64,000 nt of DNA from Candidatus Haliotispira prima (GTDB lineage: Bacteria; Spirochaetota; Spirochaetia; SP-2023): assembly GCA_029867005.1 (NCBI GenBank), contig CP123443.1, positions 1,178,001 through 1,242,000 of the forward strand, read 5' to 3'. The notes below the pieces were generated by a model that worked only from the letters and a program-made list of their open reading frames with translations, was not told the origin of the DNA and made no database searches. Within the stretch, counting starts at the first letter, position 1, and the number at the start of each line of letters is the position of its first letter. Position numbers and translations under genes: made by a program. Shown here one piece after another: positions 5,265-46,539 of this stretch.

Positions 5265-5293
5265 TTGCCAAAACCTCTAAACGAATATACAAT
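5265..5293 (+). promoter_or_regulatory. Promoter of module copy 1
   Basis: TTGCCA (5265-5270), 17 nt, TACAAT (5288-5293). The same arrangement with the same 17-nt spacing and a shared inter-box sequence (AAACGAATA) precedes most of the other copies. The leader ATG is 36 nt downstream of the -10 box, with GGAGGA as ribosome site. Confidence 0.85.
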
Positions 5294-5328
5294 AGGCCAA
5301 ATTTACATAATCTTGGAGGAATTTTCTT

Positions 5329-6607
5329 ATGAAATATCAAAATAGACTGTTGACCAGTGACCCCAAAAACAGTATAATATCCAATATCCAATATCCAATA
5401 TCCAATATCCAATATCCATACCAGTTTTAAAATATATATACAGTCAGTTTTATCTCTTTTATTTTCTAATAAATCTCATTCTTTCAAAGCCTTTCCGGTT
5501 GTTTTACTTTTCTGTATTTTTTCTGTTCTGTCCGGCTGTGCGCCGATCTCTGACGACCAGCCTGCGTCTGCGACAACTTTTACCCTCTCTTTTAACTCGC
5601 AAGGTGGCACAGAAGTAACTCCGGAAACGATAAGAAGCGGAGAAAAATCTCCGCAGCCTACAGACCCAACTAAGGCAAATTTTGTTTTTGGCGGATGGTA
5701 CAAAGAACAAGCTTTGACCACCATTTTCAACTTTACTCAGGAGACGATTACCGGGAACCTCACCCTGTATGCCAAGTGGGAAAAACTGAGACTAAATACC
5801 TCTATGGCTTGGGTATCTATGCGGGAGGGCTTGGTGCAACTGGACAACGGCACCCAAGGTGTAAAAATCATTGGTGTTGTGGTAAGTAAAGATGACACAG
5901 CTCCCGTCTATGCCGGCGTGAAAGACCTGCCGGGGTTCTACACCAGAAAAACTAAAGCAGACGGAACACCTCGAACGGCCTATCTTTCGATGACCGAGAA
6001 AATGACCTCTGCCAAGTTTAATGCCGGTATAACGGTTTCTGTTGACGGAGGATCTACGGGATTTGTCAGTGCTGTTGTCTCTGTTCCGGAACTGCTGCAC
6101 CCGAACACAATATATTATGCTCATTTCTATGACATAGCAGGTACTACGGGCACACCCATAGAAAAACTGGCGTTTACCACAGAGAACTTTCCTGCCACCT
6201 ACCCCATCATAAGAGCAACATACAGCCGCTTTTATAACCTGATCACTACCGGCAGCAGTTCTCCTAATATGGAATACAAGTCCTCCGAAAGTTATTTAAT
6301 TCCGGCCCGGTTTCATTACTCTTTGACAGGTGGGGGACCGTATCGACTTATAACAAACTTCGCTCTCGATCGGCTGAGAGAACCTGCTCAAAGTACCCGC
6401 CCTTTTGAAAATACAGATCTGGCACTCTTAATCTATGATTTATACAATATTACATCCTCCGGACCGAATACAAGCGTAAATCTTTGGGACACAATGATAG
6501 GAGTGTTACAGAACAATTTGAATGAGACATGGCAAATTGACTATCAATTTGGAGGGCAGAATTTCACATTTTACGATAATAAAAAGGCCGTATTAGTAAG
6601 CGAATAG
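5329..6607 (+). CDS. Phase-variable lipoprotein, copy 1 (frame broken here)
   Basis: The leader ATG (5329) has a strong GGAGGA site and reads MKYQNRLLTSDPKNSIISN into the CCAATAT tract, then hits a stop after YQF at about 5430. The lipoprotein frame runs through the tract to 6607 and contains a hydrophobic stretch ending in the lipobox VLSGC (Cys codon 5537-5539). The predicted mature protein is 356 residues. No ATG/GTG/TTG lies between the tract and the lipobox in that frame, so translation must come through the tract. With five full units the frames differ by one; four or seven units would join them. After the lipobox this copy alone has a Listeria-Bacteroides repeat-like domain (NSQGGTEVT ... 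FGGWY ... LYAKWEK). The family domain that starts with ASMAWVSMREGLVQLDNG / LNTSMAWVSM is shared with copy 2. Predicted location is the outer surface. The true function is unknown. Confidence 0.75.
5376..5419 (+). repeat. CCAATAT heptanucleotide tract, copy 1 (5 full units)
   Basis: Five full CCAATAT units (5381-5415), flanked by AATAT and CCAT remnants. All three reading frames are stop-free and encode a rotation of ISNIQYP. In frame at 4 or 7 units, so OFF as sequenced. Confidence 0.95.
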
Positions 6608-6633
6608 TAGTCAGATAGAGGTTCTCTTGTATT

Positions 6634-6650
6634 CCCCTCCCTGCGAGGGG
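6634..6650. repeat. CCCCTCC-GAGGGG hairpin repeat
   Basis: This short inverted repeat of CCCCTC and GAGGGG lies after lipoprotein copy 1. Similar copies occur at 9386-9402, 9418-9434 and 10755-10771, always between module genes and usually within a GGCCGGGGGTGGT context. It looks like a REP-type intergenic repeat. It lacks a T-run, so terminator activity is doubtful. Confidence 0.7.
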
Positions 6651-6700
6651 CCGGGGTGTCTGAGCCGGGGGTGGTCTAAGTTCCCAGGCTACCCCCGGCC

Positions 6701-6729
6701 TTGCCAAAATCCCTAAACGAATATACAAT
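6701..6729 (+). promoter_or_regulatory. Promoter of module copy 2
   Basis: TTGCCA (6701-6706), 17 nt, TACAAT (6724-6729). The sequence from here to about 6900 is nearly identical to that of copy 3 (8081-8280), so the control region was duplicated recently. Confidence 0.85.
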
Positions 6730-6767
6730 CAGGCCCTAAATTCAGACCAGCTTAGAGGAGCAGCCCC

Positions 6768-7849
6768 ATGAAAAAGCAGCATAGCGTATTGATGGACATT
6801 GGTCTAAACAGTACAATATCCAATATCCAATATCCAATATCCAATATCACACTACTTTAGAAAGAAAGCATTTATTTCTTTGTATATCAACTAATTATAA
6901 GTATTTTCACTTCCTTTTTTTCCGTTTCCGTTTCCGTCTTCTTCCCTTTCTTTTTCTGTTTTTTATCGGTGTCAGCTTATTGGGCTGTGACCCGCTGTCT
7001 AATGAGAGTAAAGACCCGGCCCCTCCCGCTGGGGCCGGCTTAAACGCCTCTATGGCATGGGTCTCCATGCGGGAGGGGCTGGTACAATTGGACAATGGCA
7101 GCCGGGGAGCCAAAACCATAGGCGTTGTGGTCAGCAGGGAAACGGAGCCTCCTGCCTATGGGGAAATAAAAGACCTGCCCGGTTTTTACACCAGAAAGAC
7201 GAAAGCGGACGGCACACCGAGAACCGTCTATCTTTCTATGACCGATAAAATGACGGTGGCGAAGTTCACTGCCAATGTCATGGTTTCTGTTGACGGACAG
7301 GCTACAGGCTTTGTCAGTGCCATTAATTCCGCACCGGAACTATTGCACCCGAACACGAAATATTATGTTCATTTCTACGAGGTAATGAGTACTGCGGGCA
7401 CAGCCATAGAAAAACTGGAATTTACGACCGAAGATTTCCCAGCCACTTTCCCAACAAGCAGAGGCAGATACAGCAGTATCTATGACCAAACCGGTAGTAC
7501 TTCGCCTGATGTAGAGTATAAAGCTTCAGAAAGTTGTCTCATTCCGTTCAGATATCATTATCGTACAATACGAGGAGGAGGTCCGTATAATTTTACTATT
7601 GGTAATGGTCTTGGATATGAATTCTCAGAATTCGCTGTGTTTACTCGTCCTTTTAGCAACTCTTTCCCGGCAACAGTATTCTATGATTTATACAATATCA
7701 CTCCCTCAGGACCCGGTACAAGTGTAGCACTTTGGGATATGATGATAAAAATAAACCATATTGGTCTGACAGTTAGACTAAATTATTCTTTTGGAGGAGA
7801 TCCTTCTTCGGCTCTCCGGATTGGAAAAACGGTATTAGTGACCGAGTAG
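6768..7849 (+). CDS. Phase-variable lipoprotein, copy 2 (frame broken here)
   Basis: The leader ATG at 6768 (GAGGAG site) reads MKKQHSVLMDIGLNSTISN and stops at TAG just after the tract. The lipoprotein frame, one unit away, is open from before the tract through a very hydrophobic Phe/Leu/Arg-rich segment to the lipobox SLLGC (Cys codon 6986-6988) and on to 7849. The predicted mature chain is 287 residues. It is closely related to copy 1 in the core (ASMAWVSMREGLVQLDNG, DLPGFYTRKTKADGTPRT, YLSMTDKMT) but lacks the repeat domain of copy 1. The mature chain ends with VLVTE, a family ending. In frame at five or two units; four are present, so OFF. In the signal region the only start-like codon in frame is a TTG two codons before the lipobox Cys, too close to make a signal peptide. 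Confidence 0.75.
6814..6848 (+). repeat. CCAATAT heptanucleotide tract, copy 2 (4 full units)
   Basis: CAATAT followed by four full CCAATAT units (6820-6847). One more unit would join the leader to the lipoprotein frame. OFF as sequenced. Confidence 0.95.
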
Positions 7850-7853
7850 GCCA

Positions 7854-7945
7854 GTTGTCTGTGTAGAGTAGAGACACGTTGTCTGTGTAGAGTAGAGACA
7901 CGTTGTCTGTGTAGAGTAGAGACACGTTTTAACGTGTCTCTACTC
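7854..7945. repeat. 24-bp triplicate ending in a 32-bp perfect palindrome
   Basis: Three identical 24-bp units (GTTGTCTGTGTAGAGTAGAGACAC; 7854-7877, 7878-7901, 7902-7925) follow directly after lipoprotein copy 2. The last unit runs into a perfect inverted repeat, 15 bp per arm with a TT centre (7914-7945). The palindrome could act as a strong transcriptional hairpin, but there is no T-run after it. The three units give three potential left arms for one right arm. Confidence 0.9.
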
Positions 7946-7959
7946 TCTCTTGCCGAAGG

Positions 7960-7995
7960 TTCGACAGGCTCACCTACCGACCCGACAAGCTCACC
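7960..7995. repeat. TTCGACAGGCTCACC repeat
   Basis: TTCGACAGGCTCACC (7960-7974) and a second partial copy (7983-7995) occur just before the single 60-bp unit. Related copies are at 4803-4818 (end of ureD), 9351-9365 and 42856-42870. This is a dispersed intergenic repeat of the type often called REP-like. Its role is not known. Confidence 0.75.
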
Positions 7996-8012
7996 TACCA
8001 CCTCTCGTTCTA

Positions 8013-8078
8013 ATGGCCCCAATGATTTGAACTGTTATAGGGCGGGTGAGGCACCCGAACCCCCCGGTCTAAGGCCCC
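8013..8078. repeat. Single copy of the 60-bp unit
   Basis: One unit of the 4828-5262 array, with the CGGGTGAGGCACCCG palindrome at 8043-8057. It is followed within 3 bp by the -35 box of copy 3, the same relation as for copy 1. Confidence 0.88.
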
Positions 8079-8080
8079 CC

Positions 8081-8109
8081 TTGTCAAAACTCCTAAACGA
8101 ATATACAAT
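8081..8109 (+). promoter_or_regulatory. Promoter of module copy 3
   Basis: TTGTCA (8081-8086), 17 nt, TACAAT (8104-8109), with the shared inter-box sequence. Confidence 0.85.
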
Positions 8110-8147
8110 CAGGCCCTAAATTCAGACCAGCTTAGAGGAGCAGCCCC

Positions 8148-9277
8148 ATGAAAAAGCAGCATAGCGTATTGACGGACATTGGTATAAACAGTACAATATC
8201 CAATATCCAATATCCAATATCCAATATCACACTACTGTAGAAAGCAAGCATCTATTTCTTTGTATATCAACTAATTATAAGTATTTTTACACTTTTTTCT
8301 GTCGTCTTTTATTTCTCCTTTTTCTGTCCGTTTTTGGCCTGCTTCTGCTCGCCTGTGCCGACCCGGCAACAAGCTCCACCCCCGACCGAATTCCTGCACC
8401 CAAGGTGACTTTCCCCTACATCGGTGCCAATGACCTCACTTTTTCCATAACCAGCGAATTAGAGGGAGAGGTGGCGTTTACCTTTGGGATTTCTGTCTCT
8501 AACACCACCACGCTTCCGGCCCAACTAGGTAAAGGCTATATCCAGCGTACCTTAACAAAAGACGTAAGCAGAGAGGTTTTTATGGCCCACTTGAATACCA
8601 TACCGGATGACATAAACACGCTCACAGCAGAGCATTTTTTGAAAGAGAATACGACGTATTACCTGAATATTTATCGGGGCAGAGAATTCGCATCACAAAA
8701 ATCTTTCACAACCGCCAAGTTTGCTACCTTGTCCACTTTGGAAAGAAGACAGGGGGCTAACAACATAGGCATTCATTCTTGGGGCCAATATTTTCCCTCC
8801 AATGGGAAGACAACAAATACTGATGGAGATAACGTTGCCCTGCCACAAACAAGCACAGAAATTAGCTCCCCCAAAAAGATAGAAGTAAAAGAAAAGGAGT
8901 ATTTGATACTTCCAATAAGGGTGGCTTTTCCTATATTGGCAGAGCCCTCACCTGTCACCTCAGCAGAGGAAGTGAATTTGCATTTAATTCAAGCTAAGGC
9001 AGACGATCAGGGATACTTTAAGATAGTGTTTACTTTTTTTTCAGGAAATGAGTCACTTGGACCGGATAATATGAATACTATTTTTTTAGAAAGGAAAACA
9101 AAATCCACTAATTTTGATGTGTATTTTAGTGCTGTCATGGCTATGTCGCTCTCTGATCCGGTAACTAAAAATTATTTTCTTGGAGATGGCTTAGAAATGG
9201 AGTATAATATCCAGTATAATCAGGCAGCCTACATTGCTACACAGAGGATACAAAACGTACAATTAATTACCGAATAG
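8148..9277 (+). CDS. Phase-variable lipoprotein, copy 3 (frame broken here)
   Basis: The leader ATG at 8148 (GAGGAG site) reads MKKQHSVLTDIGINSTISN and terminates at TAG after the tract. The lipoprotein frame has a hydrophobic stretch with the lipobox LLLAC (Cys codon 8354-8356), then a 307-residue mature chain to 9277. No ATG, GTG or TTG is present between tract and lipobox. The mature part has a fibronectin-III-like pattern (FLKENTTYYLNIY ... KSFTTAKF) and ends NVQLITE. About the first 170 residues of the mature chain are almost identical to copy 4, while the C-terminal half differs. In frame at five units; four are present, so OFF. Confidence 0.75.
8194..8228 (+). repeat. CCAATAT heptanucleotide tract, copy 3 (4 full units)
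   Basis: CAATAT plus four full CCAATAT units (8200-8227). One unit short of the in-frame state. Confidence 0.95.
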
Positions 9278-9385
9278 TTACCCATTAATTACCCGGTAAT
9301 CTTCATTTTTCAACACGCGGGCACAGAACAAAGGCCTGGTTTAAGAGCGCTTCGACAGGCTCAGCTATCCCCCACTCTTGTAATT

Positions 9386-9434
9386 CCCCTCCCTTGGAGG
9401 GGCCGGGGGTGGTCATTCCCCTCCTTTGGAGGGG
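9386..9434. repeat. Two CCCCTCC-GGAGGGG hairpin repeats
   Basis: Two inverted repeats (9386-9402 and 9418-9434) in the 200-bp gap between copies 3 and 4, after a TTCGACAGGCTCAGC element at 9351-9365. The gap holds only these repeats and the promoter of copy 4. Confidence 0.75.
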
Positions 9435-9484
9435 TCAGGCGTGGTTGGGCCGGGGGTGGTCCAAGTTCCTACACTACCCCCCCC

Positions 9485-9513
9485 TTGTCAAAACTCCTAA
9501 ACGAATATATAGT
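9485..9513 (+). promoter_or_regulatory. Promoter of module copy 4
   Basis: TTGTCA (9485-9490), 17 nt, TATAGT (9508-9513). Confidence 0.83.
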
Positions 9514-9550
9514 CTCCCCTAAATTCAGACCAGCTTAGAGGAGCAGCCCC

Positions 9551-10701
9551 ATGAAAAAGCAACATAGCGTATTGACGGACATTGGTATAAACAGTACAAT
9601 ATCCAATATCCAATATCCAATATCCAATATCACACTACTGTAGAAAGCAAACATCTATTTCTTTACATATCAACTAATTATAAGCATTTTTATACCTTTT
9701 TCTGTCGTCTTTTATCTCTCCTTTTTCTGTCCGTTTTTGGCCTGCTTCTGCTCGCCTGTGCCGACCCGGCAACAAGCTCCACCCTTGACCGAATCCCTGC
9801 ACCCAGGGTGACTTTCCCCTACATCGGTGCCAATGAACTCACTTTTTCCATAACCAGCGAGTTGGAGGGAGAGGTGGAGTTTACCTTTGGGATTTCTGCC
9901 TCTAACACCACCACGCTTCCGGCCCAATTAGGTAAAGGCTATATCCAGCGTACCTTAACAAAAGACGTAAGCAGAGAGGTTTTTATGGCCCACTTGAATA
10001 CCATACCGGATGACATAAACACGCTCACAGCAGGGCATTTTTTGAAAGAGAATACGACGTATTACCTGAATATTTACCGGGGCAGAGAATTCGCCTCACA
10101 AAAATCTTTTACCACGGCCAAGTTTGTGACCTTGTCCACTCCGGAAAGAAGGCAGGGGGCTAACAATGTCGGCATTCATTCTTGGGATCAATATTTTCCC
10201 TCCAATGGAAGTATCGTAGATACTCTCGGGAATACTATTTCCACACCAAGAACAAGCACAGAGTTTACCTCTCCGAAAAAGATAGAAGTAAAAAAGGAAG
10301 AGTATTTAATACTTCCAATCAGGTTAGTAATTCCGATATTTGCAGAACCCTCACCTTTTATCTCAACAGAAGAAGCAGAAATTTATTTATTGGAAATTAA
10401 GGTTCTTAACACCATTTCTGCCTATGAAACAATATTTAGTTATTTTACAGCTACTAATCCATTTACAATTGGAGATGGTGATGCTATGAACAGTAAAACA
10501 ATTTGTTTAGAAACAGATCAAACGAAGTCCGTTAATTTTAATGCCTACTTGAGCTGTATTATTACTATACCGACTTTTGATCCGGCAGCCGAAAATAATT
10601 TTATCAATAGTGAGCTTACGTTAGAGTTTAGTAATCAATTCAATGCCGCAGACTATATTGCTACCCAGGTGATAAAAAACGTGAAGTTAATTACCCGTTA
10701 A
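9551..10701 (+). CDS. Phase-variable lipoprotein, copy 4 (frame broken here)
   Basis: The leader ATG at 9551 begins the same MKKQHSVLTDIGINSTISN peptide as copy 3 and stops just after the tract. The lipoprotein frame has the lipobox LLLAC (Cys codon 9757-9759) and a 314-residue mature chain ending NVKLITR. The N-terminal half is nearly identical to copy 3 (FPYIGANELTFSITSELEG, KGYIQRTLTKDVSREVFMAH, FLKENTTYYLNIYRGREF). The C-terminal half, after KIEVKKEEYLILPIR, has diverged strongly. This pattern suggests selection on, or recombination in, the distal half. No start codon lies between tract and lipobox. Four units are present and five are needed, so OFF. Confidence 0.75.
9597..9631 (+). repeat. 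CCAATAT heptanucleotide tract, copy 4 (4 full units)
   Basis: CAATAT plus four full CCAATAT units (9603-9630). OFF by one unit. Confidence 0.95.
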
Positions 10702-11036
10702 TCTTGAATCTTGATTTTTCAATACGCCTTTGTTTCGTGCCGGCGGTGGTAATTCCCCTCCTTTGGAGGGGCGGGCGTGGTTGGGCCGGCACGCCGAAGT
10801 GGCCTTTCCCACCAAATTGTTTTCCGCCGGAGATGCCGGCTCAACAGGTATTCGTACCTAAGAACGGAAAGCCACAGAAATCATGCCGCTATGGATGCTT
10901 TTCGTGACGGGTTATGAGCCCTGATGGTTGAGACCGACCCCGGTACGTAACCGTAAATATGCTTTCTATATCAAGACTTGACAAAAGAAGAACATACAGA
11001 TAAAATTTTATCTATAATGATAGAAAAGAATTACTT
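10702..11036. other. Intergenic region with REP-type hairpin and promoter
   Basis: This gap contains a CCCCTCC-TTT-GGAGGGG hairpin (10755-10771) inside a larger GCCGGC-flanked segment (10740-10788), then unremarkable sequence up to the promoter of the Roc-COR gene. I see no convincing gene in it. Confidence 0.6.
10978..11006 (+). promoter_or_regulatory. Sigma70-type promoter of the LRR-Roc-COR gene
   Basis: Consensus TTGACA (10978-10983), 17 nt, TAAAAT (11001-11006). The ATG follows 30 nt downstream. A second TATAAT at 11013-11018 has no -35 at normal spacing. Confidence 0.7.
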
Positions 11037-13610
11037 ATGAAAAAATCAAACAATATAGCTCTGAAACGGATTCAGGAATGTTTGCAGGAACAAGCAACTA
11101 CTCTTGACTTATCAGATTTAGGCTTAAAAGAACTCCCAAGTGAAATTAGCCGGTTAAAACATCTAAATACACTGGATTGCTCAGAGAACGAAATCACGGA
11201 TTTGTCGCCCTTAAAGGGTTTGGGTTCTCTGAATGAGCTGGATTGCTCAGAGAATGAAATCAGGGATGTATCTCCCTTGGGTGGTTTGGGTTCTCTGAAT
11301 ACACTAAATTGCTCTGATAACCAAATCAGGGATTTATCTCCCCTGACGGGTTTGAGTTCTCTGAATAGACTGGATTGCTCTGATAACCAAATCAGGGATT
11401 TATCTTCCCTGGCGGGTTTGGATTCTCTGAATGAACTATTTTGCCCTAGTAACCAAATCACGGATTTGTCTCCCTTGGCGGGTTTGGATTCTCTGAATGA
11501 ACTATTTTGCTTTGGTAACCAAATCAAGGATTTATCTCCCCTGGCTGGTTTGGGTTCTCTGAATACACTACATTGCTCTAATAACCAAATTACGGATTTG
11601 TCGCCCTTAAGGGGTTTGAGTTTTCTGAATAGGCTACATTGTTGGAGTAACCCAATTACGACCCCACCTATGGAGGTGGTAAACCAGGGGCTTGAGGCAA
11701 TCCGCGAGTATTTGCGTGCCGTAGAAAAACATGGCACCGTGGAGTTTCGGGAAGTCAAAGTTATGCTGGTGGGCAGCCCGGGAGGCGGCAAAACTACCTT
11801 GCGCCGGCGCATTTTGGGAGAAGACATCCCTGCGGAAGAGTTTGGTACTCCGGGTGTGGATATGGCTGTCTGGCGGTTTCGAGACCAGGGAAAAGAATAT
11901 CGGGCCAATATTTGGGATTTTGCAGGACAGGAAATCAATTACTCTCTGCACGAGCTATTTTATTCGCGGCGCAGCATCTTTGTTCTGTTACTGGATGGCC
12001 GTACCGAAGACCGCCCTGAAAAATGGTTGGAGCGCATTAAGTTGTTAGCTAACCAAGATGCCCGCATCCTGTTAGTCCGCAACAAAAATGACGACACGGG
12101 CTACAAAACGCTGTCCAATTTTGATGTAAATGAATTAACAGAAAAGTACCCTGCCCTGCGAGAAGGCTTGTTTGAGATGTCTGCTCGCAAAGGAACGGGC
12201 TGTGACGAATTTCTCCGGACCTTACGCCAAACCGTGACAGATCACCCGCAAAGCAGGGAGAAATACCCAAAGAACTACCTAAATATTAAAAAAACAGTAG
12301 AAGAGCGTACTCAAAAAGGACAAAATCATATTACACACGAGACCTACAGCGAGATTTGCAATGAAAATGAGCTACCCGGAAAGCAAGCACAAAAACACCT
12401 GTTACAGGTATTGAGTGATTTGGGAACCGTCACATTTTTTAATGATCCCGAACTGGCGAATATCCGGATATTAAACCCCGAATGGCTCTCTTTAGCTGCT
12501 TACAAACTATTACATGCCGCAGAGAATCGGGAAGCGGGCGGCTTTATTGATAAAAAAGATTTCCCCCAATATTTGCAGGCCGCTCCCGGCAGAGAGCATG
12601 AAGCGAAGTTAAAATTGCAGGAACACGAATATCCGTGGATTGAAAACATGATGGTGAAACACTTGCAGATGTTGCCCATTGATGGAGAAAGATTCTTAAT
12701 CCCTCGCGGCTTACGCAGTGACATTCAGCTGCCTAAACGTTCCGAAGACTGCCTGCGATTCCGTTTGAAATACAAAAGTTTGCCGGAAGGATTTTTCCCC
12801 AAACTCATCGTCAAAACCTACCGCTACCGCAAAGAATCCTTTCAAGGCCGGGAAAAACTATTGCTGGAACGCACTTCTGAAAATAAAAGCAACCGTGCTT
12901 TTGTCCTTTTGGGAGAAAAAGATATTCGGATTTGGATTGATGGCGATAAGGCCCAGAGGCACGCATTTTTAACTCTATTGCGGGAAGAATTTACCTTTTT
13001 ACACGCGGACTATCCGGGTATTGAACCTAAAGAGTTCGTTCCCTTAGATGATTTTGACGGTGAGGAATTATTGCTGAAAGCCATTTGTAGAGAATTGGAA
13101 AGAGGAGAACAAAAACATTTTAATATGAATTTAGACCAAGAGTTTGATTTGGCAGAATTAATCGCCCTTCCGGCTTCTGACGGCAGCAAAACGACAATAG
13201 TCAAAAATAAAATAGTCAATCACGGCGGAAATGTATATGTTACAGAATCCGGTGATATCCGACATGAAGAAAAAACCATCCATTTTTCCATAGGGCAAAT
13301 AGAGGATACAAAAACCGCAGGACTATTTCTAAACGAATTTTTAGCATTGCTGGATAACCCGAACACCCCGGAGCGGGAAGCTCTGCAAAAATTGGCCGAA
13401 ACCCTAACCTCGCTCAGCAATCGCGGTAGATTGCCCGGTTCTGAGAAAGAACCCACCCGATCCATTTTCCAAAAAGGCCAAGACACGATAAAAGCAATGC
13501 TAAAGACAGCAGATACAGCAATAAAAGCGGGAGAAAAACTGGGGAAAGTTGTGGAAGTTGGCGGGAAATGCCTGCCTTATATTGAGCAATTTATAGAACT
13601 ATTCCAATGA
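11037..13610 (+). CDS. LRR-Roc-COR (bacterial ROCO) protein
   Basis: This 857-residue cytoplasmic protein has three parts. Residues about 20-218 are leucine-rich repeats: eight 22-residue units (L-N-x-L-x-C-x-x-N-x-I-x-D-L-S-P-L-x-G-L) from residue 43. Residues about 238-400 are a Roc GTPase with P-loop GSPGGGKT (246-253), GTPG (270-273), DFAGQE (294-299) and NKND (349-352). A COR region follows (about 410-690), including a winged-helix-like part (LQVLSDLGTVTFFND). The tail after about residue 700 has a glycine/valine strand segment (NHGGNVYVTESGDI) and amphipathic helices. Bacterial ROCO proteins are GTP-dependent dimers with mostly unknown roles. This one has its own promoter and no evident partner gene. 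It may be a signalling or conflict-related protein, which is inference. Confidence 0.9.
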   Translation: MKKSNNIALKRIQECLQEQATTLDLSDLGLKELPSEISRLKHLNTLDCSENEITDLSPLKGLGSLNELDCSENEIRDVSPLGGLGSLNTLNCSDNQIRDLSPLTGLSSLNRLDCSDNQIRDLSSLAGLDSLNELFCPSNQITDLSPLAGLDSLNELFCFGNQIKDLSPLAGLGSLNTLHCSNNQITDLSPLRGLSFLNRLHCWSNPITTPPMEVVNQGLEAIREYLRAVEKHGTVEFREVKVMLVGSPGGGKTTLRRRILGEDIPAEEFGTPGVDMAVWRFRDQGKEYRANIWDFAGQEINYSLHELFYSRRSIFVLLLDGRTEDRPEKWLERIKLLANQDARILLVRNKNDDTGYKTLSNFDVNELTEKYPALREGLFEMSARKGTGCDEFLRTLRQTVTDHPQSREKYPKNYLNIKKTVEERTQKGQNHITHETYSEICNENELPGKQAQKHLLQVLSDLGTVTFFNDPELANIRILNPEWLSLAAYKLLHAAENREAGGFIDKKDFPQYLQAAPGREHEAKLKLQEHEYPWIENMMVKHLQMLPIDGERFLIPRGLRSDIQLPKRSEDCLRFRLKYKSLPEGFFPKLIVKTYRYRKESFQGREKLLLERTSENKSNRAFVLLGEKDIRIWIDGDKAQRHAFLTLLREEFTFLHADYPGIEPKEFVPLDDFDGEELLLKAICRELERGEQKHFNMNLDQEFDLAELIALPASDGSKTTIVKNKIVNHGGNVYVTESGDIRHEEKTIHFSIGQIEDTKTAGLFLNEFLALLDNPNTPEREALQKLAETLTSLSNRGRLPGSEKEPTRSIFQKGQDTIKAMLKTADTAIKAGEKLGKVVEVGGKCLPYIEQFIELFQ
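11163..11624 (+). repeat. 66-bp tandem repeats encoding LRRs
   Basis: Seven consecutive 66-bp units encode the first seven 22-residue LRRs and share long stretches of nearly identical DNA (for example the segment around ACCAAATCA.GGATTT.TCTCCC). This identity suggests recent expansion and possible copy-number variation, with the frame kept because 66 is divisible by three. Confidence 0.88.
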
Positions 13611-13680
13611 CAGATAAACGGGAATTAACCAAAAGACGAAGCACCGGCGAAGATTCTTCCACCGAGTTTAAAACCTGCTG

Positions 13681-29904: not shown

Positions 29905-31899
29905 TCAGGTTCTCTGCAATAAGCGGTACAGCTCCTGTTTGCTGATGCTGTACCACACCGGCCGACCGTGAGGGCAACGTTCCAAACCCATGGAAAACAA
30001 AGAGTCCAGTAATTTGTTGGCACTGATGTCATCCAGAACGTCACCTTTCTTGATGGCCTTGCGGCAGGAAAGGTGGGCGAACAGTTCCCGCTTTAAATCC
30101 TCGGCTTCGCTCGCACCGTTGCGTACCAATTCAATCAATTCTTCTTTGAGGTCCCCGACAGAGGGCGGCAAACCGGAAATTTGCCAAGAGCTGCAAGTGC
30201 CATAAGAGCCGCGCTCCGATTCGACTTCCTCGACCTGAATGCCAATCGAGGCCAAAGCCGGGCTGCGCCGGCGCAAGGATTCCTGTTCGGTTTCATCTGC
30301 CTCAAAAGTGATGGGTACCAGCAGAGGCTGTTTTTGCAACATTTCACGCTCTAAAGTCTCATAAAGGAGACGTTCATGGCCGGCGTGCTGATCGACGATC
30401 AACAATTGCTCCACCCCATCCATTTCGCATTCGACCAACAGGAAGACTTCAAATATCCGGCCCAGATAGCGGAAGGGTTGTTTCCCTCGGAGCTCTATAC
30501 TTTCGGTACTCCAGGAAAACCCGGACAAATCGGCAGAACGGCCGGATTTGGGGCCGGAGGCAGCAGCGGGGATATCATTCCTGTAATCTTCCCGCAAACT
30601 GTCACCTTCAAACGGTTCAGACGTTTCGGGAGAGCGGCCATTTCCCAGTAAATCACGGGCCGAAAAACTCTGTTCTCCGACTGGGGGAGCTTGGCCCTTT
30701 CGGCCCTTCTCCGGCGGTTCGAAGATTCTGGAAAAGTTGGCAGATGAGTGACGTTGGGGCGCAGAACCAGCCCTTGTTCCCCTGTTTTGGTCCCGGTCTT
30801 GGGCCCGGCCGATTTCCGGGCTGTTTGCACGCGTCGGTTCTCCCGCGTTTGCCGTTTCCGGCAAACTGCCGTGGCTCAATTTGCCGGTCTCGCGGCAAAA
30901 GCTGCGCAGAGTTTGCCGAATGCCCGATTGAATCAGACTGAGATCGCGCAGGCGCGCTTCGCGTTTGGCCGGGTGAATATTAAAATCAACCCGTTCCGGA
31001 TCCACTTCGAGGAAGCAAAAGCAAATCGGGAACAAGCCACCGGCCAGATAGCCGTCGAAACCAATGCGCACAGCCTGTTGCAGCGAGGCTTCAGAAATCG
31101 GCCGCTGATTGATATAGATGGGCATTCGCTTGCGGTCCCGGCGGTAGAGTGCCGGAGACGCGGCGAAAAGCTCCAGAGAAAAATGCCCGGCGCGCTCGCT
31201 CAGAGAGAATAGCTGTTCCGGTGCTAAATCACCGTAAATTTGGCAAATACGCTCCGGTGCCGACCCCGGGGACAGGGACAGTTCCATTTTGCTGTTATTG
31301 TACAGACGGAAATAGATATGGGGAAAGGCCAAGGCCTTTTCCTGAAACACCGCCTTGCAGTGGTTCAATTCGGCGCGGACGCTTTTGAGGAATTTGCGCC
31401 GAGCCGGAAAAGAGTAAAACAGTTCGCGTACTTCCACCTGCGTACCGCTGTGGGCGGCTGAAACCTCTTGCAAATCCTGAAACAGGCTGTCGGCAATTCG
31501 CAGCTCGTGGGCCTTCAGTTTGGCCGACACGTCCGAGACTTCGGAGATTTCCTGGGCACTGCTGATGCGCAGTTTACTGCAAGCGGCAACGGAACCCAGT
31601 GCCTCACCACGGAAGCCGAGACTGCAAAGTTGCAACAGGTCATTGGTTTGACGAATTTTTGATGTAGCGTGCGGCAAATAACAAAGTTCCAAGTCCTCCC
31701 GGCTCATACCAAAGCCATCATCGGTGACCCGTATCAACTGCAAACCACCCTCTTCCAAGTACAACGAGATTTGCGTGGCCCCGGCATCAATCGCATTGTC
31801 CAACAGCTCGCGTACCACCGCCGAAGGGCGTTCAATGACCTCGCCGGCTGCAATCTTGGCAGCGACCTGAGGGTCGAGAATAGCTATATTTTGGCTCAT
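29905..31899 (-). CDS. mutL: DNA mismatch repair protein MutL
   Basis: This 664-residue protein has the N-terminal GHKL ATPase motifs AAGEVIERPSAVVRELLDNAIDAGA, DDGFGM and GFRGEALGS. The C-terminal endonuclease motif DQHAGHERLLYE fits DQHA-x2-E-x4-E, and the downstream CPHGRP is also present, so this MutL is predicted to nick DNA itself. The linker (about residues 340-450) is low-complexity and Pro/Arg/Gly-rich. MutL connects mismatch recognition by MutS to strand removal. Its presence is relevant to the short-repeat switching elsewhere in the window. It is in an operon with a PASTA gene upstream and a kinase-like gene downstream. Confidence 0.96.
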   Translation of the reverse strand: MSQNIAILDPQVAAKIAAGEVIERPSAVVRELLDNAIDAGATQISLYLEEGGLQLIRVTDDGFGMSREDLELCYLPHATSKIRQTNDLLQLCSLGFRGEALGSVAACSKLRISSAQEISEVSDVSAKLKAHELRIADSLFQDLQEVSAAHSGTQVEVRELFYSFPARRKFLKSVRAELNHCKAVFQEKALAFPHIYFRLYNNSKMELSLSPGSAPERICQIYGDLAPEQLFSLSERAGHFSLELFAASPALYRRDRKRMPIYINQRPISEASLQQAVRIGFDGYLAGGLFPICFCFLEVDPERVDFNIHPAKREARLRDLSLIQSGIRQTLRSFCRETGKLSHGSLPETANAGEPTRANSPEIGRAQDRDQNRGTRAGSAPQRHSSANFSRIFEPPEKGRKGQAPPVGEQSFSARDLLGNGRSPETSEPFEGDSLREDYRNDIPAAASGPKSGRSADLSGFSWSTESIELRGKQPFRYLGRIFEVFLLVECEMDGVEQLLIVDQHAGHERLLYETLEREMLQKQPLLVPITFEADETEQESLRRRSPALASIGIQVEEVESERGSYGTCSSWQISGLPPSVGDLKEELIELVRNGASEAEDLKRELFAHLSCRKAIKKGDVLDDISANKLLDSLFSMGLERCPHGRPVWYSISKQELYRLLQRT

Positions 31900-38208: not shown

Positions 38209-38291
38209 GTGCGCCGCTCTTCCCGTTTTTCCAGCTTTTTTCTCGTTTTTTTCCAGCTTTTCCCTAATACTTATGATGAGGCCATAAACAT

Positions 38292-40828: not shown

Positions 40829-40895
40829 ATGAAAATTCTTTTTCGGACTTGTGTGGGCTGTCAAGGCCTGCGCCTCTTCTGCCAGCATACCACTC

Positions 40896-40924
40896 TTGAA
40901 AAATCTTTTCAATAAATATAGAAT
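40896..40924 (+). promoter_or_regulatory. Promoter of module copy 5
   Basis: TTGAAA (40896-40901), 17 nt, TAGAAT (40919-40924). The spacing equals that of the seven lipoprotein copies. The box sequences are more divergent. Confidence 0.75.
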
Positions 40925-40960
40925 AAGCCCCGAGTCTATCTTATTTGAAGGAGCACTTCC

Positions 40961-42788
40961 ATGAAAGATCGAGATAAAATATTGACAGATGTTGGTAAAA
41001 ACAGTACAATATCCAATATCCAATATCCAATATCCAATATCCAATATCCAATATCCTTCAATTTCATTATCATCAAAAATGGCAATGATTCCCAAAATCA
41101 TCCATTTTTCAGTCAGAGAATATAATCAAAGTGTATCAAAATATATTAACGTTGCAAAAAAGGTATCCCTTGGTTGGGATATACGCGTTTGGGAAGATGT
41201 TAATCTTCAGAAAAAAGATTTTGAGCTGTCTCATTTGTGGAACTCCTGTCAGTCCGGTGCGGCTCTGTCTGATCTGATAAGATTAGAGCTCGTATATAAG
41301 CATGGGGGCTTCTACCTTGATTCTGATTATGAATTGTACAGACCCTTAGATCATCTAAGGGAATACTCTTTTGTAGTCTCCTCTGAAGGGGACCCCTTCG
41401 TTGCGAATTGTTTCTTCGGTGCGAGCCCACAATCACCCATAATCAGGAAAATGATTGATGAGTTAAAATCGTACGATAAAGTACCGGAGGATATTCAGCC
41501 TAATATATTTTCCGGCCCTCATTTTTTTACAAGACATGTAGTTCTAAACTATAAAGATTCCACGATAATCCCGAGAGCTTTAATTGTTCCGGATATACGC
41601 CCGGTTGATTCGGACGAATCTGCTCGTCATTATTGGGGAATAGGTTGTCATCACTTCCATGATAGCTGGGGTATTAAAGAAGATAACATAAAGTATCTCC
41701 AAACCAGAGAGCGGGAATATGAGGGGAAAGAACATATAGAAGCCAAAGGTTCCGGTATTCATATGTATCCAAAACCATTCATAAAAAAGTTAATCAAACG
41801 ACTACTGCTTATCACTGGAGTAAAAAAACTAATTAATCGTTGGAAAAGACTGATGCTTAAGGAAGTAAAGTCTGAGCTTGCCGAGATAAAAGCCGGGTTT
41901 GTTGAGATGCAATCCAGGCTTGTTGAGGTGAAATCTGAACTTGTTGAGATAAAGGCTAAGCCGGCGAATAAATCTCGTGACAATAAAGTTTACCCTTCCG
42001 GTGACGGGACGATTATCTTTCGTGCAGAAGAGGGGCATCACCTTCAAGTTTTGGCTGGAGACCGCAGCGTGACACCACATGCTGTTGATGACCTTTTTGA
42101 AAGAGGCCATCGGCTTTTCATAAAGAAGATATTAAGAAAAGGTGATTGGTTTGTTGACGCAGGAGCAAATGTAGGGATGTTCACTCATCTTGCCGCGCAA
42201 TCTGTGGGAAGGTTTGGGAAGGTGTTTGCTTTTGAACCGAATAAAGTCTGTGCTGATATCATAGATCAAACTACGATTATTAATTACAACTTTTTTCCCA
42301 TAGAGATACATAACGTTGCGTTAAGCGACACAGAGAAGTCTGAAAATTTTCTGTTTTCCGGCTCTAATTTCGGTAGTGCCAGTCTGGCTGCGGACTCAGT
42401 TGACCTAATGGTTCCGTACACTCAAAAGAATCTGGAAAGTCGAGTGGTGGAGTGTAAGCTCCTCGATTCTTATATACCTGATTACGGACACATTCGCTGT
42501 TGTAAAATAGATGTTGAAGGGTATGAAGCAGCCGTTCTTCGGGGTGCAGAGAAATTAATTTCTAATTATAGAATTGATTATCTTTTAATTGAGGTATATT
42601 ATGAAGTTTGCGGATATGACCGAATGAAAGATTTATTGGAATACATCCGCCGGATGGTGTATGATTTGGGATACAGTCTGTTTGTTATTGATGATGATGG
42701 GAATTGTTCCGAGATGAGTTTTGAATACTTGGCAGTGACACAATATGCTTATGCTCTTTTAAAATCACCTAAGGCGACAGATCATTAG
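40961..42788 (+). CDS. Repeat-led glycosyltransferase-FkbM methyltransferase (leader frame broken here)
   Basis: The leader ATG at 40961 (AAGGAG site) gives MKDRDKILTDVGKNSTISN, homologous to the lipoprotein leaders, and runs into the tract but stops at TAA about 41123. The catalytic body begins right after the tract at MAMIPKIIHFSV (41079). It has a GT-A sugar-transferase domain with GGFYLDSDYELYRPL (DxD at DSD). A heptad-like coiled coil follows (LVEVKSELVEIK, about 41860-41960). The C-terminal domain is an FkbM-type methyltransferase (VDAGANVGMFTHLAA, VFAFEPN, IDVEGYEAAVLRGAEKLI). The enzyme could transfer a sugar and methylate it. Five units would put the leader in frame; six are present. 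Unlike the lipoproteins, weak alternative starts exist (ATG 40989, 41079), so some expression may persist in the OFF state. Confidence 0.8.
41007..41056 (+). repeat. CCAATAT heptanucleotide tract, copy 5 (6 full units)
   Basis: CAATAT, six full CCAATAT units (41013-41054), then CC. In frame with the leader at five or eight units. Confidence 0.95.
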
Positions 42789-42946
42789 TTCTAGCTTTTC
42801 TTTAGGAAATAGTAAGACACGATCCAAAAGAGTCTCTCAACCGTTATTAAATTGATTCGACAAGCTCAGCAACCTATTTGGACAGGCTGACGAATCTACC
42901 GGTCTAATAGACCTAATTGATTTTTATTATTGTAAATCACCCCCCC

Positions 42947-42975
42947 TTGCCAAAATTCCTAAACGAACATACAAT
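42947..42975 (+). promoter_or_regulatory. Promoter of module copy 6
   Basis: TTGCCA (42947-42952), 17 nt, TACAAT (42970-42975). Confidence 0.85.
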
Positions 42976-43027
42976 CAATCTGCAAACTCCATTTTGCCAT
43001 TTTGACTTTTCTCAGAGGAGCATTTTT

Positions 43028-44043
43028 ATGAAAAAACGAGATAAGATATTGACTATTATTAGTATAGAGGGTATAATATCCAATATCCAATATCCAATAT
43101 CCAATATCCCGCTACATTAAAAACTAAGCATTTACTATTTTCTCTGCCAAATTATTGTAAACCTTTTTATTCTTTTTTTTACCTTCTTTTACCACTATTT
43201 CTTCTGTCTGTTTTTGGTATGTCTTTCCTTGGCTGTAGCCCCCTGTCTGACAACAATGACCCTCCTCCAAAATCGACTGTTTCTCTTTCCACGGTCGCTG
43301 TGGTCTCTTCCGTCCAATTGGAAGTGAGCAGCAGTTTAGCACTCGCCAATATAGGGGCCGTTATCCGTTTAGCTACGGAAGCGGCCCCCACGAAAGCGGA
43401 AGCGGAAGCCAATGCGGGTTATGTCAGCCTTGGTATTGCGGCCGGCAGTACTCGCAAATTTAGCATCAGCCAACACTATGGCAGTGATTTTGAGGGTGGT
43501 GGCCTTACTCCGGCCGATGTATTGGCTCCTGAGACTCAATACAAGCTGTACTTGTTCTTTGGACCCGGTACTGTGAATCCGATTGAGGGAGTCTCCCTCA
43601 CAAATGATGTCGCAACCCTTTCCTTTACCACTGCTGCCCTGCCCCCCGCAGGGGATGCCGTGTGGGCTCGTTCGCTGACAGGGGAGCAGTTGGTCGGAAC
43701 CCTTCCCGAGTGGGGCTATAGTAAAAATCAAAAGGGGGTCTTTGTGGCCTATACACGATTATTAAATGGTTTTATTGGTTTTACATTGACTACTCGCAAA
43801 GAGGCGAACTCTATTAGTCAAACCCTCGGAACAGTTATTATAGGGAGCGTTGTTCCGGATCCGAAATTTCTTTTTGGTTTTTCCAAACTGAGTGGTAGTT
43901 ATCCTGATACAGACAACTATTACTATATCATCGCTACAGAAAAAGAACCTAGAATATCCGGAAATAATTTCCAATTAGAAAATGTCACTTTCGGACAACC
44001 CATTATCCATCGGGTACTCCTCACTCGATATGGCAGTCCGTAA
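43028..44043 (+). CDS. Phase-variable lipoprotein, copy 6 (frame broken here)
   Basis: The leader ATG at 43028 (GAGGAG site further up) reads MKKRDKILTIISIEGIISN into the tract and stops at TAA about 43120. The lipoprotein frame holds a hydrophobic stretch with the lipobox SFLGC (Cys codon 43234-43236) and a mature chain of 269 residues to 44043. The only start codon between tract and Cys is an ATG five codons before it, too close to encode a signal peptide. The mature part is the most divergent in the family but keeps PTKAEAEANAGYVS and the PETQYKLYLFF ... LSFTTAAL core; it ends LLTRYGSP. Four units are present and five are needed, so OFF. Confidence 0.72.
43075..43109 (+). repeat. CCAATAT heptanucleotide tract, copy 6 (4 full units)
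   Basis: AATAT, four full CCAATAT units (43080-43107), then CC. Confidence 0.95.
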
Positions 44044-44106
44044 TGGTATTTTTTGCCTGAGTCTAAGTCATCTCCCCTAAGCGGAGTCTCTTTTAGTTGT
44101 AGAGAA

Positions 44107-44227
44107 GCACGAAAAGTTTAACAGACAGAACTGGTCTCTACTGTGGTAGATTCGTTTCGTGCCTTTCCTGCTTTTCGTGCTTTTAACAGACGGAACCGGT
44201 TGCTATTACAGTAAATTGGTTCGGGCC
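44107..44227. repeat. Degenerate direct and inverted repeats after copy 6
   Basis: GCACGAAAAG (44107-44116) is inverted at 44171-44180 (CTTTTCGTGC). A roughly 47-bp segment starting TTTAACAGAC (44117-44163) recurs in degenerate form at 44182-44227. The region lies just before the promoter of copy 7 and contains no gene. Confidence 0.7.
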
Positions 44228-44250
44228 TCTTGCAAAAAAAGCCCCCCCCC

Positions 44251-44279
44251 TTGCCAAAACTCCTAAACGAATATATAAT
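44251..44279 (+). promoter_or_regulatory. Promoter of module copy 7
   Basis: TTGCCA (44251-44256), 17 nt, TATAAT (44274-44279), the strongest -10 among the eight copies. Confidence 0.85.
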
Positions 44280-44316
44280 TAGGTTCTAAATCTACTTTTT
44301 TTAAAGGAGCACTTTT

Positions 44317-45362
44317 ATGCAAAAACGAGACAAAATATTGACTAATATTGGTCTAAACAGTATAATATCCAATATCCAATATCCAATATCCAATATCCAA
44401 CTCAGTTAGGGCATAAACATTTACTCCAAACTCTATTAAACTATTTTAAATTTTTTTATTTATTATCTTTATCTCTTTTTTCTTTCCTTTTTCTGTTCAT
44501 CATTGGCCTAACTTTGCTTGCCTGTGCCCCGCTCTCCCAGACTAAGAACCCGGACAGTAGTGACCCACCTCCTACGCCAACCCCCACCAAATCTATTACA
44601 GTCAATTATGCGGGCCTCCACTATGTTCATTTCACCGCTGATGACCCCAATTTGTCCGCAGACAAAACGGTCGGTTTTCTGATAACGCCGGCAGACAGCA
44701 GCCCCTCTAAGGCCGAGGCCGAGGCGAAGAAAGGCTATATTACCAGAAAATTTACGGAAGCCAAAAAATCAAGAAACGTATTTATGTTCCTGCACGAGGG
44801 AACGGCTTACGAGCTTGCTACCGGGAGTACGGACATTCCGTTTACCACAGGTGCCACAGCCAGTGATACGAGTTTTGAGACAACGGACATCTTACAGGAA
44901 AACACGGAGTACAAAATACGCATGTATGACGGAGAGGAGATACAGGAGAAGACCTTTACCACCAAATCTTTTGCCGATGGGAATGCGAGTTCCACAGGAG
45001 TTATTGCCTATATGGGCGGTTTGGCAACAAATACAAACGTGGATGCACCTCTTACCATAGAACGAAAACCCGAAGAAATTATGCTTCTTCCCTACGCAGA
45101 TGATACTTATGGAGGGAGTTCTATTGATTATCTTGAGAATGCTCTTGTACAAGGAGGTTGTTCTCCTGGTTGTGGGACGGGCCTACCGGGGACGTATGTA
45201 TATGCTCTAAGAACAGAGGCCAATACACTTGCTTCTACCGTTAAATTTGTTTCTCTGGTATATATACTCTATTCCCAAAAGAAAATAGCCCAATCTAATT
45301 GGACTGCAAAAGAAGGTACAAGCCTGGACATTGCCTATGATATAAAAATCATAAGCGAGTAG
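44317..45362 (+). CDS. Phase-variable lipoprotein, copy 7 (frame broken here)
   Basis: The leader ATG at 44317 (AAGGAG site) reads MQKRDKILTNIGLNSIISN and stops at TAG just after the tract. The lipoprotein frame has a hydrophobic region with lipobox TLLAC (Cys codon 44523-44525) and a 279-residue mature chain to 45362. The chain contains KAEAEAKKGYITRKFTE, the family core ILQENTEYKIRMYDGEEI ... KTFTTKSF, a Cys-Gly pair (GGCSPGCG), and ends KIISE. The last ~425 bp are almost identical to copy 8, with only one base difference seen. The sole in-frame start-like codon before the Cys is a TTG three codons away. Four units, five needed, so OFF. Confidence 0.76.
44364..44400 (+). repeat. CCAATAT heptanucleotide tract, copy 7 (4 full units)
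   Basis: AATAT, four full CCAATAT units (44369-44396), then CCAA. Confidence 0.95.
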
Positions 45363-45419
45363 AGGGCCTGGGCTGGGTTAGGCCCGGAAGTTAGCAGAAG
45401 AGCAAGCTTGCCTCTCCCC

Positions 45420-45448
45420 TTGTCCAATTCTCTAAATGAATATATGAT
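45420..45448 (+). promoter_or_regulatory. Promoter of module copy 8
   Basis: TTGTCC (45420-45425), 17 nt, TATGAT (45443-45448), the same geometry with weaker boxes. Confidence 0.78.
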
Positions 45449-45493
45449 TAGGCTGTAAATTCATTTTTCCCATTTTCGCAAAGGAGCTACCGC

Positions 45494-46539
45494 ATGAAAC
45501 ATCAAAAAATACTATTGACCGGCATGCCGGAAAACAGTAAAATATCCAATATCCAATATCCAATATCCAATATCACACTACTTTAGAAAACAAGCATTTA
45601 TTACTTTCTCTCTCAAACCGTTTCAAACCTTTTTATTCATTTTTTTACAGTATTTTACCACTATTTTTTCTGTCCGTTATTGGGGTGTCTTTACTCGGCT
45701 GTGCTCCGCTGTCTAACACCAAGAACCCGGACAACAGTGACCCGCCATCCGCACCGAGCCCCGTAAAATCCATTGCGGTCAATTATGCGGGCCTCCACTA
45801 TGTTCATTTCACCGCTGATGACCCCAATTTGTCCGCAGACAAAACGGTCGGTTTTCTGATAACGCCGGCAGACAGTAACCTCTCTAAGGCCGAGGCCGAG
45901 GCCAAGAAAGGCTACATTACCAGAAAATTTACGGAAACCCAAAAGACGAGGGCCATCTTTATGTTCCTGCACGAGGGGACGGCTTATGAGCTTGCCACCG
46001 GCAGTACGGACATTCCGTTTACCACAGGTGCCACAGCCAGTAATACAAGTTTTGAAATAACGGACATATTGCAGGAAAACACGTCGTACAAAATACGCAT
46101 GTACGACGGAGAGGAGATACAGGAGAAGACCTTTACCACCAAATCTTTTGCCGATGGGAATGCGAGTTCCACAGGAGTTATTGCCTATATGGGCGGTTTG
46201 GCAACAAATACAAACGTGGATGCACCTCTTACCATAGAACGAAAACCCGAAGAAATTATGCTTCTTCCCTACGCAGATGATACTTATGGAGGGAGTTCTA
46301 TTGATTATCTTGAGAATGCTCTTGTACAAGGAGGTTGTTCTCCTGGTTGTGGGACGGGCCTACCGGGGACGTATGTATATGCTCTAAGAACAGAGGCCAA
46401 TACACTTGCTTCTACCGTTAAATTTGTTTCTCTGGTATATATACTCTCTTCCCAAAAGAAAATAGCCCAATCTAATTGGACTGCAAAAGAAGGTACAAGC
46501 CTGGACATTGCCTATGATATAAAAATCATAAGCGAGTAG
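45494..46539 (+). CDS. Phase-variable lipoprotein, copy 8 (frame broken here)
   Basis: The leader ATG at 45494 (AAGGAG site) reads MKHQKILLTGMPENSKISN and stops at TAG after the tract. The lipoprotein frame has lipobox SLLGC (Cys codon 45700-45702) and a 279-residue mature chain ending KIISE at 46539. It is the closest paralogue of copy 7: the proximal half differs at scattered positions (for example SNLSKAEAEAKKGY against SSPSKAEAEAKKGY), while the distal ~425 bp are practically identical. This is consistent with gene conversion. Four units are present and five are needed, so OFF. Confidence 0.76.
45541..45574 (+). repeat. CCAATAT heptanucleotide tract, copy 8 (4 full units)
   Basis: AATAT, four full CCAATAT units (45546-45573), then C. 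Confidence 0.95.

Follow-up and report, generated by a model that had tools for sequence, protein, structure and literature searches.

The opa genes of Neisseria carry a pentamer repeat in the region that encodes the signal peptide, and the silent cassettes of the Borrelia vmp/vls type possess neither a promoter nor a start codon. Other repeat-controlled families have been described in print. Tract data for the opa repeat (5'-CTTCT) form part of a survey of Neisseria phasomes (PMC5953494), which accepts units of 6–9 bases with at least 3 copies as candidates and reaches its maximum, 90 candidate genes with many different repeats, in N. lactamica 030-24; 11 opa genes are given for one gonococcal strain (PMC11868660). 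In Haemophilus influenzae hmw1A the heptanucleotide ATCTTTC lies in the 5' untranslated region, where it tunes transcription (13–24 units in the constructs; PMC8262952), and in the vlhA families of Mycoplasma gallisepticum, which comprise tens of genes, GAA repeats located ~40 nucleotides (nt) 5' of the transcription start act at the promoter (PMC6258824). Here we describe a lipoprotein gene family of the spirochaete Candidatus Haliotispira prima in which a heptanucleotide, CCAATAT, follows a short leader inside the predicted reading frame. We analysed it in a 64,000-nt stretch of contig CP123443.1 (positions 1,178,001 to 1,242,000; hereafter the window) and across the whole genome. On the strength of its sequence features, the family is probably a genome-wide translational frame-switch system of ~400 loci, in which the number of repeat units decides what is read and most copies are predicted to be OFF.

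The window contains eight perfect CCAATAT tracts of 4–6 units, all on the forward strand and where a sequence-only reading of the same DNA had placed them (Table 1); two-unit matches number 27, compared with 0 across 100 shuffles. Each tract begins 52 nt after the ATG of a leader that has a strong Shine-Dalgarno (SD)-like motif. As that reading had also claimed, a promoter-like pair with a 17-nt spacer (P1) precedes all eight copies, some of the pairs being weak (TTGTCA/TATAGT at 9485, for example), and the seven lipoprotein copies lack a usable start between tract and lipobox, with no ATG, GTG or TTG before position Cys minus 12. It is equally true that every frame of the tract encodes the same heptapeptide in rotation, but this is simple arithmetic for any stop-free 7-mer repeat. 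What the reading overlooked is that none of the eight copies, in the sequence as it stands, has its downstream open reading frame (ORF) in frame with the leader, that the leader itself contains a second promoter-like element, that one copy, a glycosyltransferase gene, is an exception, and that its "eight-copy module" recurs at ~400 loci.

The window is part of a single contig of 3,251,735 bp, on which 942 three-unit minus 546 four-unit matches leave 396 CCAATAT tracts of at least 3 units; the reversed pattern, used as a control, gave 0 matches. A motif that is independent of the repeat (start codon-N18-TTGAH-N18-TANAAT) identified 398 genome sites and 0 in its control. A further 17 loci are built from variant units (CC[CT]ATAT), with the same changed base across the matched units: among the 12 that were read, ten have five CCCATAT units, one has three units and one has five CCTATAT units. 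Whole tracts in which every unit shares one substitution imply that the tracts do turn over. Extrapolating from a mean of ~1,049 nt per locus, the family makes up ~13% of the genome. Five of the loci in the genome counts lie at the contig end, and their bodies are identical to those of five loci at the contig start (offset 3,239,454 throughout). Positions 3239455–3251735 of the contig repeat positions 1–12281 (12,281 bases, ungapped identity 0.96), and this terminal repeat is probably the untrimmed overlap of a circular assembly.

The more detailed figures come from stretches totalling 1.41 Mb, including the window, that were chosen partly systematically and partly to target clusters and that yielded 300 tracts (tracts within 150 nt of the start of a stretch, or within 600 nt of its end, were passed over and are uncounted). 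Removal of the locus at 600290 (which failed the SD rule), of that at 828458 (broken tract and a stop in the leader) and of the five loci in the contig-end overlap left 293, and the 12 variant-unit loci lie outside this set. The ORF, lipobox, P1 and P2 figures refer to 299 loci, the clustering to 298, and the analyses of length, frame, synonymous divergence (dS) and length versus frame to 293.

Among the described systems, the closest in mechanism would be opa-type translational switching: by analogy with opa, a short repeat whose unit is not a multiple of three, placed directly behind the start codon in a multigene family of surface proteins, would set the frame through its unit number, and in all eight window copies the repeat does lie between a start codon and the remaining coding region. 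The differences from opa are the ~400 loci, the heptamer, the 4–5-unit tracts, the embedded candidate second promoter, the nearly universal out-of-frame state and the unrelated proteins. In repeat length and promoter contact, hmw1A, an adhesin gene, is closest, since both have two promoters and a heptanucleotide repeat abutting a -10 box (the internal element of our leaders, promoter-like by sequence, ends 2 nt before the tract); unlike the hmw1A tract, however, the repeat here comes after the start codon, where it would determine the frame. The style of the family is closest to that of vlhA, a large set of lipoprotein genes with the same repeat at each gene and few members expected to be strongly expressed, but the vlhA repeat is 5' of the promoter, whereas our tracts are 3' of both promoter-like elements and inside the reading frame. 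The phasomes of Neisseria likewise comprise many genes per genome controlled by simple sequence repeats (SSRs), with many different repeats in the surveyed set as against one repeat and one leader design for the ~400 loci described here. Finally, a P1-like pair in 279 of 299 loci, together with the leader start codon, sets these copies apart from silent cassettes of the vmp/vls type.

Among the 293 loci, 178 have 4 units, 108 have 5 and five have 6, with one locus each at 3 and 7 units, so that 286 carry 4 or 5; relative to the leader, 13 downstream ORFs are in frame, 111 in frame 1 and 169 in frame 2. The sequence-only reading had argued that slippage by one unit must change the frame read downstream: unit number does set the frame, and both in-frame and out-of-frame variants exist between paralogs (13 versus 280), but fast slippage is not supported (see below). 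Across the whole genome, loci whose tract is followed by CACAC have 4 units in 173 cases (out of frame) and 5 units in 3 (in frame), and those followed by CYRTACY have 5 units in 90 cases (out of frame) and 4 units, which would be in frame, in none. Expressed by requirement, 158 of the 167 loci that need 5 units to be in frame have 4, and 91 of the 95 that need 4 have 5; a third class has 17 loci at 4 units, 10 at 5, 3 at 6 (in frame) and 1 at 7. With one vote per single-linkage cluster, Fisher tests of length against frame gave P values of 1.7e-22, 3.1e-6 and 0.018 at 90%, 85% and 80% identity, and ON-majority clusters number 6 of 55 at 85% (P 1.2e-4); the thresholds were of our own choosing, and four were tried, all of which are given, the coarsest (75%) below. 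Shared ancestry explains part of both the OFF excess and the dependence of length on frame. The tract lengths look tuned to keep the genes OFF, a tendency that is not significant at the coarsest clustering. A subfamily with InlB-like DGG repeats (VSFQTDGGS-like) is mostly in frame (7 of 10 loci, versus 6 of 283 others), having been delimited post hoc, once the in-frame loci were known.

The downstream ORFs appear to depend on the leader start. All 299 tract loci that have a leader carry, 3' of the tract, an ORF of at least 194 amino acids (aa; median 318), and a lipobox was detected in 274 of them, with a TTG between the tract and Cys-12 in 7. Between Cys-12 and the nearest stop upstream of it, 237 of the 255 out-of-frame lipoprotein loci offer none of the codons ATG, GTG and TTG, making the ORF dependent on an upstream start, and in 2 of the 255 a start codon with an SD-like motif occurs far upstream. 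None of 59 representatives has a stop in the lipobox frame between tract and lipobox, compared with 49 and 51 in the other two frames; shuffled stretches are open in 16.3 of 59 cases on average and in 25 at most. Because the lipobox frame is open up to the tract and starts of its own are rare, the leader ATG is the only plausible lipoprotein start, and translation from this ATG through the tract is the best reading of the sequence. At out-of-frame loci the leader frame runs into a stop a median of 3 codons 3' of the tract (the median distance is 4 codons or fewer in 9 of 12 post-tract clusters). Two other routes were considered and rejected: programmed ribosomal frameshifting as a general mechanism, for which the two large classes would need opposite shifts from the same leader, and leaderless translation from the internal promoter-like element, for which there is no canonical start in the lipobox frame and relative to which the classes again differ in frame.

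The leader is a dense arrangement of signals. A start codon with an SD-like motif accompanies 299 of the 300 tracts (the SD motif being part of the search rule), and the tract starts exactly 52 nt after the start codon in 283 of the 299 leaders read, the remainder measuring 41–57 nt. The sequence-only reading had described a conserved leader peptide, which we rejected as the main cause of conservation on the basis of the codon-position patterns. Codon 8 is TTG and codon 17 is ATA in all 253 distinct leaders, the fixed bases including synonymous positions, while codon 16 varies (ATA, ACA, AGA, AAA) at its second, amino-acid-changing base. Since codon 16 is free precisely where the amino acid changes and synonymous positions are fixed, the conservation is that of a DNA element and not mainly that of a peptide. 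This element, P2, is a sigma70-like TTGAC-N17-TANAAT that ends 2 nt 5' of the tract, inside the leader; of 299 loci, 297 have a 17-nt spacer, and leaders anywhere from 41 to 57 nt long retain the element. The upstream P1 (mostly TTGCCA-17-TACAAT) scores at least 9 of 12 in 279 of 299 loci, compared with 35 of 299 in a shuffled control. P2 is thus promoter-like, a candidate second promoter embedded in the leader, and its predicted transcript would start within the repeat and exclude the leader start codon. At the same time, the ATG frame of the leader is free of stops in all 253 distinct leaders (column permutation mean 24.7, minimum 15), and 51 representative leaders have 0 stops against 5.97 expected, with zero reached in none of 1000 permutations. 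The overlap of promoter, leader-coding and repeat signals within 52 nt is unusual in itself.

P2 opens the way to a different account, in which transcription starts from P2 within the repeat, unit number tunes expression and the lipoproteins use starts that have gone unrecognised. The near-constant spacer, the invariant bases that disregard codon position and the retention of P2 in leaders of other lengths all argue for it, as do the constrained tract length and the purifying selection on out-of-frame genes described below; in addition, the hmw1A heptamer overlaps the -10 box of a promoter called P2 (PMC8262952). We nonetheless consider this account distinctly unlikely. Whatever upstream point is taken as reference, the lipobox frame differs between the two large classes, so that one and the same upstream start could not serve the two, and the 237 of 255 loci noted above offer no canonical start in the lipobox frame. 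Nor would a pure promoter element need a stop-free leader frame with an SD motif and an ATG, or a tract length that tracks the downstream frame, as it does at 80–90% clustering.

Near-identical neighbours illustrate what a change of one unit would do: the locus at 829974 has 5 units and is out of frame, and that at 831471 has 6 and is in frame, while the neighbours at 292477 (5 units, in frame) and 293702 (4 units, out of frame) form a second such pair. The out-of-frame bodies are under purifying selection, with a ratio of nonsynonymous to synonymous change (omega) of 0.325 across 79 disjoint pairs.

Several observations weigh against the frame-switch reading. P2 has no explained role in it. 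The stretch from tract to signal lacks codon-position bias (227, 221 and 207 differences), and proteins made from in-frame copies would have an unusually long n-region. The Fisher test of length against frame is not significant with clusters at 75% identity (0.55), and the OFF excess weakens as clusters become coarser (ON-majority in 6 of 30 at 80%, P 0.084, and in 5 of 18 at 75%, P 0.41). Length variants within clusters are in frame in about half of the cases or more, so that purging of in-frame states is not evident. In 108 disjoint paralog pairs (proportion of synonymous differences, pS, <0.4) there are 13 differences in unit number, or 0.40 per unit dS over ~32 dS units, and some of the length-differing pairs have unlike post-tract junctions and therefore cannot reflect simple slippage. 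Lastly, the omega of out-of-frame bodies is ~0.35 in the pS bins from 0.08 to 0.4 (the two youngest bins, with 2 pairs each, give 0.66 and 0.47), which is hard to reconcile with long silence. By these sequence comparisons, tract length appears to evolve slowly for a contingency locus, and rapid switching is not supported. Intact, selected, slowly switching and apparently silent genes present a puzzle, which would call for expression in a subpopulation, for recombination that brings them into in-frame loci, or for a low level of expression by other means.

The second of these possibilities leads to an archive model: the number of units stays essentially constant, and a silent body comes to expression only once gene conversion or crossing-over has carried it into one of the few in-frame loci, the homology being supplied by the leader, tract and signal region that the copies have in common. 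The slow change of tract length alongside intact bodies under purifying selection is what such a model expects, and exact body segments of at least 200 nt are common to 18 pairs of loci, including one of 343 nt in copies 7 and 8 of the window. Five of the 18, however, belong to the contig-end overlap, and once they are set aside the long exact matches are limited, some of them joining neighbours. Each analysed copy, moreover, has a start codon and a leader, and 279 of 299 have a P1-like promoter, neither of which silent donors would need, and the in-frame loci are not gathered at one expression site. We therefore regard an archive as unlikely. The idea that most loci are dead gene copies with a fossil repeat is highly improbable: it would account for the 280 of 293 loci out of frame with their leaders, but not for the long ORF kept in 299 of 299 tract loci, for an omega of ~0.35 or for the conservation of leader, P2 and tract-to-lipobox frame. 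Two further loci speak for dead copies. The locus near 635291 (reverse strand) has a leader and P2 with a 41-aa frame, lacking both tract and body, and is the sole clearly decayed copy among the 299 leader motifs read; at 828458 a stop precedes the broken tract.

The frame-switch reading thus stands, with a corrected anatomy, a scale ~50 times larger than first noted, a default-off tendency and slow switching. In the mechanism that we propose, the ribosome would start at the leader ATG and read through the heptamer tract into the lipoprotein frame, and gain or loss of one CCAATAT unit would turn a single gene on or off. OFF would be the favoured resting state, switching would be slow with tracts of 4–5 units, and DNA opening at P2, beside the tract, might promote repeat turnover, although this last step is a guess. 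A stronger version, in which ~400 surface lipoprotein genes (~1/8 of the DNA) are locked OFF as a selected default from which one unit releases them, with P2 transcription driving turnover, is possible, but we hold it only tentatively and on balance doubt it.

If the frame-switch reading is true, the family is several times larger than the 90-candidate set of N. lactamica, the largest SSR-controlled set that we found in print (PMC5953494), and a single repeat and a single leader design serve the whole family, most members of which are silent. Experiments could then ask by what means hundreds of intact but silent genes are maintained in a bacterium, how they are exposed to selection, and whether the length of a short repeat can be tuned so that genes stay OFF. 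Were the selected-default version also true, the family would be a counterpart, built on repeats, of the large archives of silent antigens that eukaryotic parasites keep. A literature search for CCAATAT, or for heptanucleotide phase variation in treponemes and spirochaetes, returned no matching report, most subscription journals lying outside the search.

The distribution of the family is narrow. A 4-unit CCAATAT tract was found in 1 of 394 sampled genomes of the class, namely this one, and in 0 of the 393 others; the lipoprotein family is likewise confined to this genome among the 394, which is also the only sampled representative of its genus, family and order. The body of copy 3 has 31 protein-database matches, all on one contig of 3,251,835 bp that is presumably this genome. 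For copy 2, 48 of 53 matches fall on that same contig and 5 on metagenome contigs (P0080–P0084, distant relatives). One of these, P0081, starts at its own ATG with an ordinary signal peptide; the other four were called from an internal Met, so that an out-of-frame leader may lie hidden there as well. A search of viral contigs for P0081 found nothing, as did a plasmid search. CCAATAT also occurs in 15 stretches of at least 6 units in 12 other genomes and as 4 units in 5 viral contigs; a P2-like element precedes the tract in 0 of these 20, and we rejected them as relatives and treat them as unrelated. The predicted structure of the copy-3 family (predicted local distance difference test score, pLDDT, 68) is beta-rich and gave single-domain matches to immunoglobulin (Ig)-like folds, such as nectin-1 D1 (template modelling score, TM, 0.69 on the target, 9% identity); for this model an Ig-like fold is suggestive only.

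Two copies in the window deserve separate mention. Copy 5 joins the lipoprotein leader and a 6-unit tract to a glycosyltransferase/FkbM gene, and the module may have been captured by it; as two ATGs occur soon 3' of the tract, this copy is not strictly leader-dependent. In copy 8, a TAA within P2 (TAAAAT) shuts the lipoprotein frame just 5' of the tract.

Table 1. The eight CCAATAT copies of the window (P1 and P2, promoter-like pairs; frames relative to the leader) and the in-frame loci of the DGG subfamily.
Feature	Positions	Strand	Details
Copy 1 P1	5265..5293	+	TTGCCA-17-TACAAT
Copy 1 leader, from ATG	5329..5380	+	P2 TTGACC-17-TATAAT at 5350-5378
Copy 1 tract	5381..5415	+	(CCAATAT)5
Copy 1 lipoprotein ORF	5417..6607	+	no own start; lipobox Cys 5537; Flg_new repeat domain; frame 1 (out)
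Copy 2 P1	6701..6729	+	TTGCCA-17-TACAAT
Copy 2 leader	6768..6819	+	P2 TTGATG-17-TACAAT at 6789-6817
Copy 2 tract	6820..6847	+	(CCAATAT)4
Copy 2 lipoprotein ORF	6848..7849	+	Cys 6986; frame 2 (out)
Copy 3 P1	8081..8109	+	TTGTCA-17-TACAAT
Copy 3 leader	8148..8199	+	P2 TTGACG-17-TACAAT at 8169-8197
Copy 3 tract	8200..8227	+	(CCAATAT)4
Copy 3 lipoprotein ORF	8228..9277	+	Cys 8354; frame 2 (out)
Copy 4 P1	9485..9513	+	TTGTCA-17-TATAGT (weak)
Copy 4 leader	9551..9602	+	P2 TTGACG-17-TACAAT at 9572-9600
Copy 4 tract	9603..9630	+	(CCAATAT)4
Copy 4 lipoprotein ORF	9631..10701	+	Cys 9757; frame 2 (out)
Copy 5 P1	40896..40924	+	TTGAAA-17-TAGAAT
Copy 5 leader	40961..41012	+	P2 TTGACA-17-TACAAT at 40982-41010
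Copy 5 tract	41013..41054	+	(CCAATAT)6
Copy 5 glycosyltransferase (Gly_transf_sug) + FkbM methyltransferase ORF	41055..42788	+	non-lipoprotein; frame 1 (out)
Copy 6 P1	42947..42975	+	TTGCCA-17-TACAAT
Copy 6 leader	43028..43079	+	P2 TTGACT-17-TATAAT at 43049-43077
Copy 6 tract	43080..43107	+	(CCAATAT)4
Copy 6 lipoprotein ORF	43108..44043	+	Cys 43234; frame 2 (out)
Copy 7 P1	44251..44279	+	TTGCCA-17-TATAAT
Copy 7 leader	44317..44368	+	P2 TTGACT-17-TATAAT at 44338-44366
Copy 7 tract	44369..44396	+	(CCAATAT)4
Copy 7 lipoprotein ORF	44397..45362	+	Cys 44523; frame 2 (out)
Copy 8 P1	45420..45448	+	TTGTCC-17-TATGAT
Copy 8 leader	45494..45545	+	P2 TTGACC-17-TAAAAT at 45515-45543
Copy 8 tract	45546..45573	+	(CCAATAT)4
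Copy 8 lipoprotein ORF	45574..46539	+	Cys 45700; frame 2 (out)
In-frame DGG loci (contig coordinates)	270868, 788673, 831471, 1606920, 1648133, 1675643, 1677315		

The window also holds other repeats and genes. Intergenic tandem repeats lie between lipoprotein genes at 4830-5262 (7.2 copies of a 60-nt unit) and at 7854-7928 (3.1 perfect copies of a 24-nt unit), and a predicted leucine-rich repeat protein with Roc and COR domains (11037-13610) adjoins the first lipoprotein cluster. A full-length MutL match is encoded on the reverse strand at 29905-31899; mismatch repair, which bears on repeat stability, is thus probably present.

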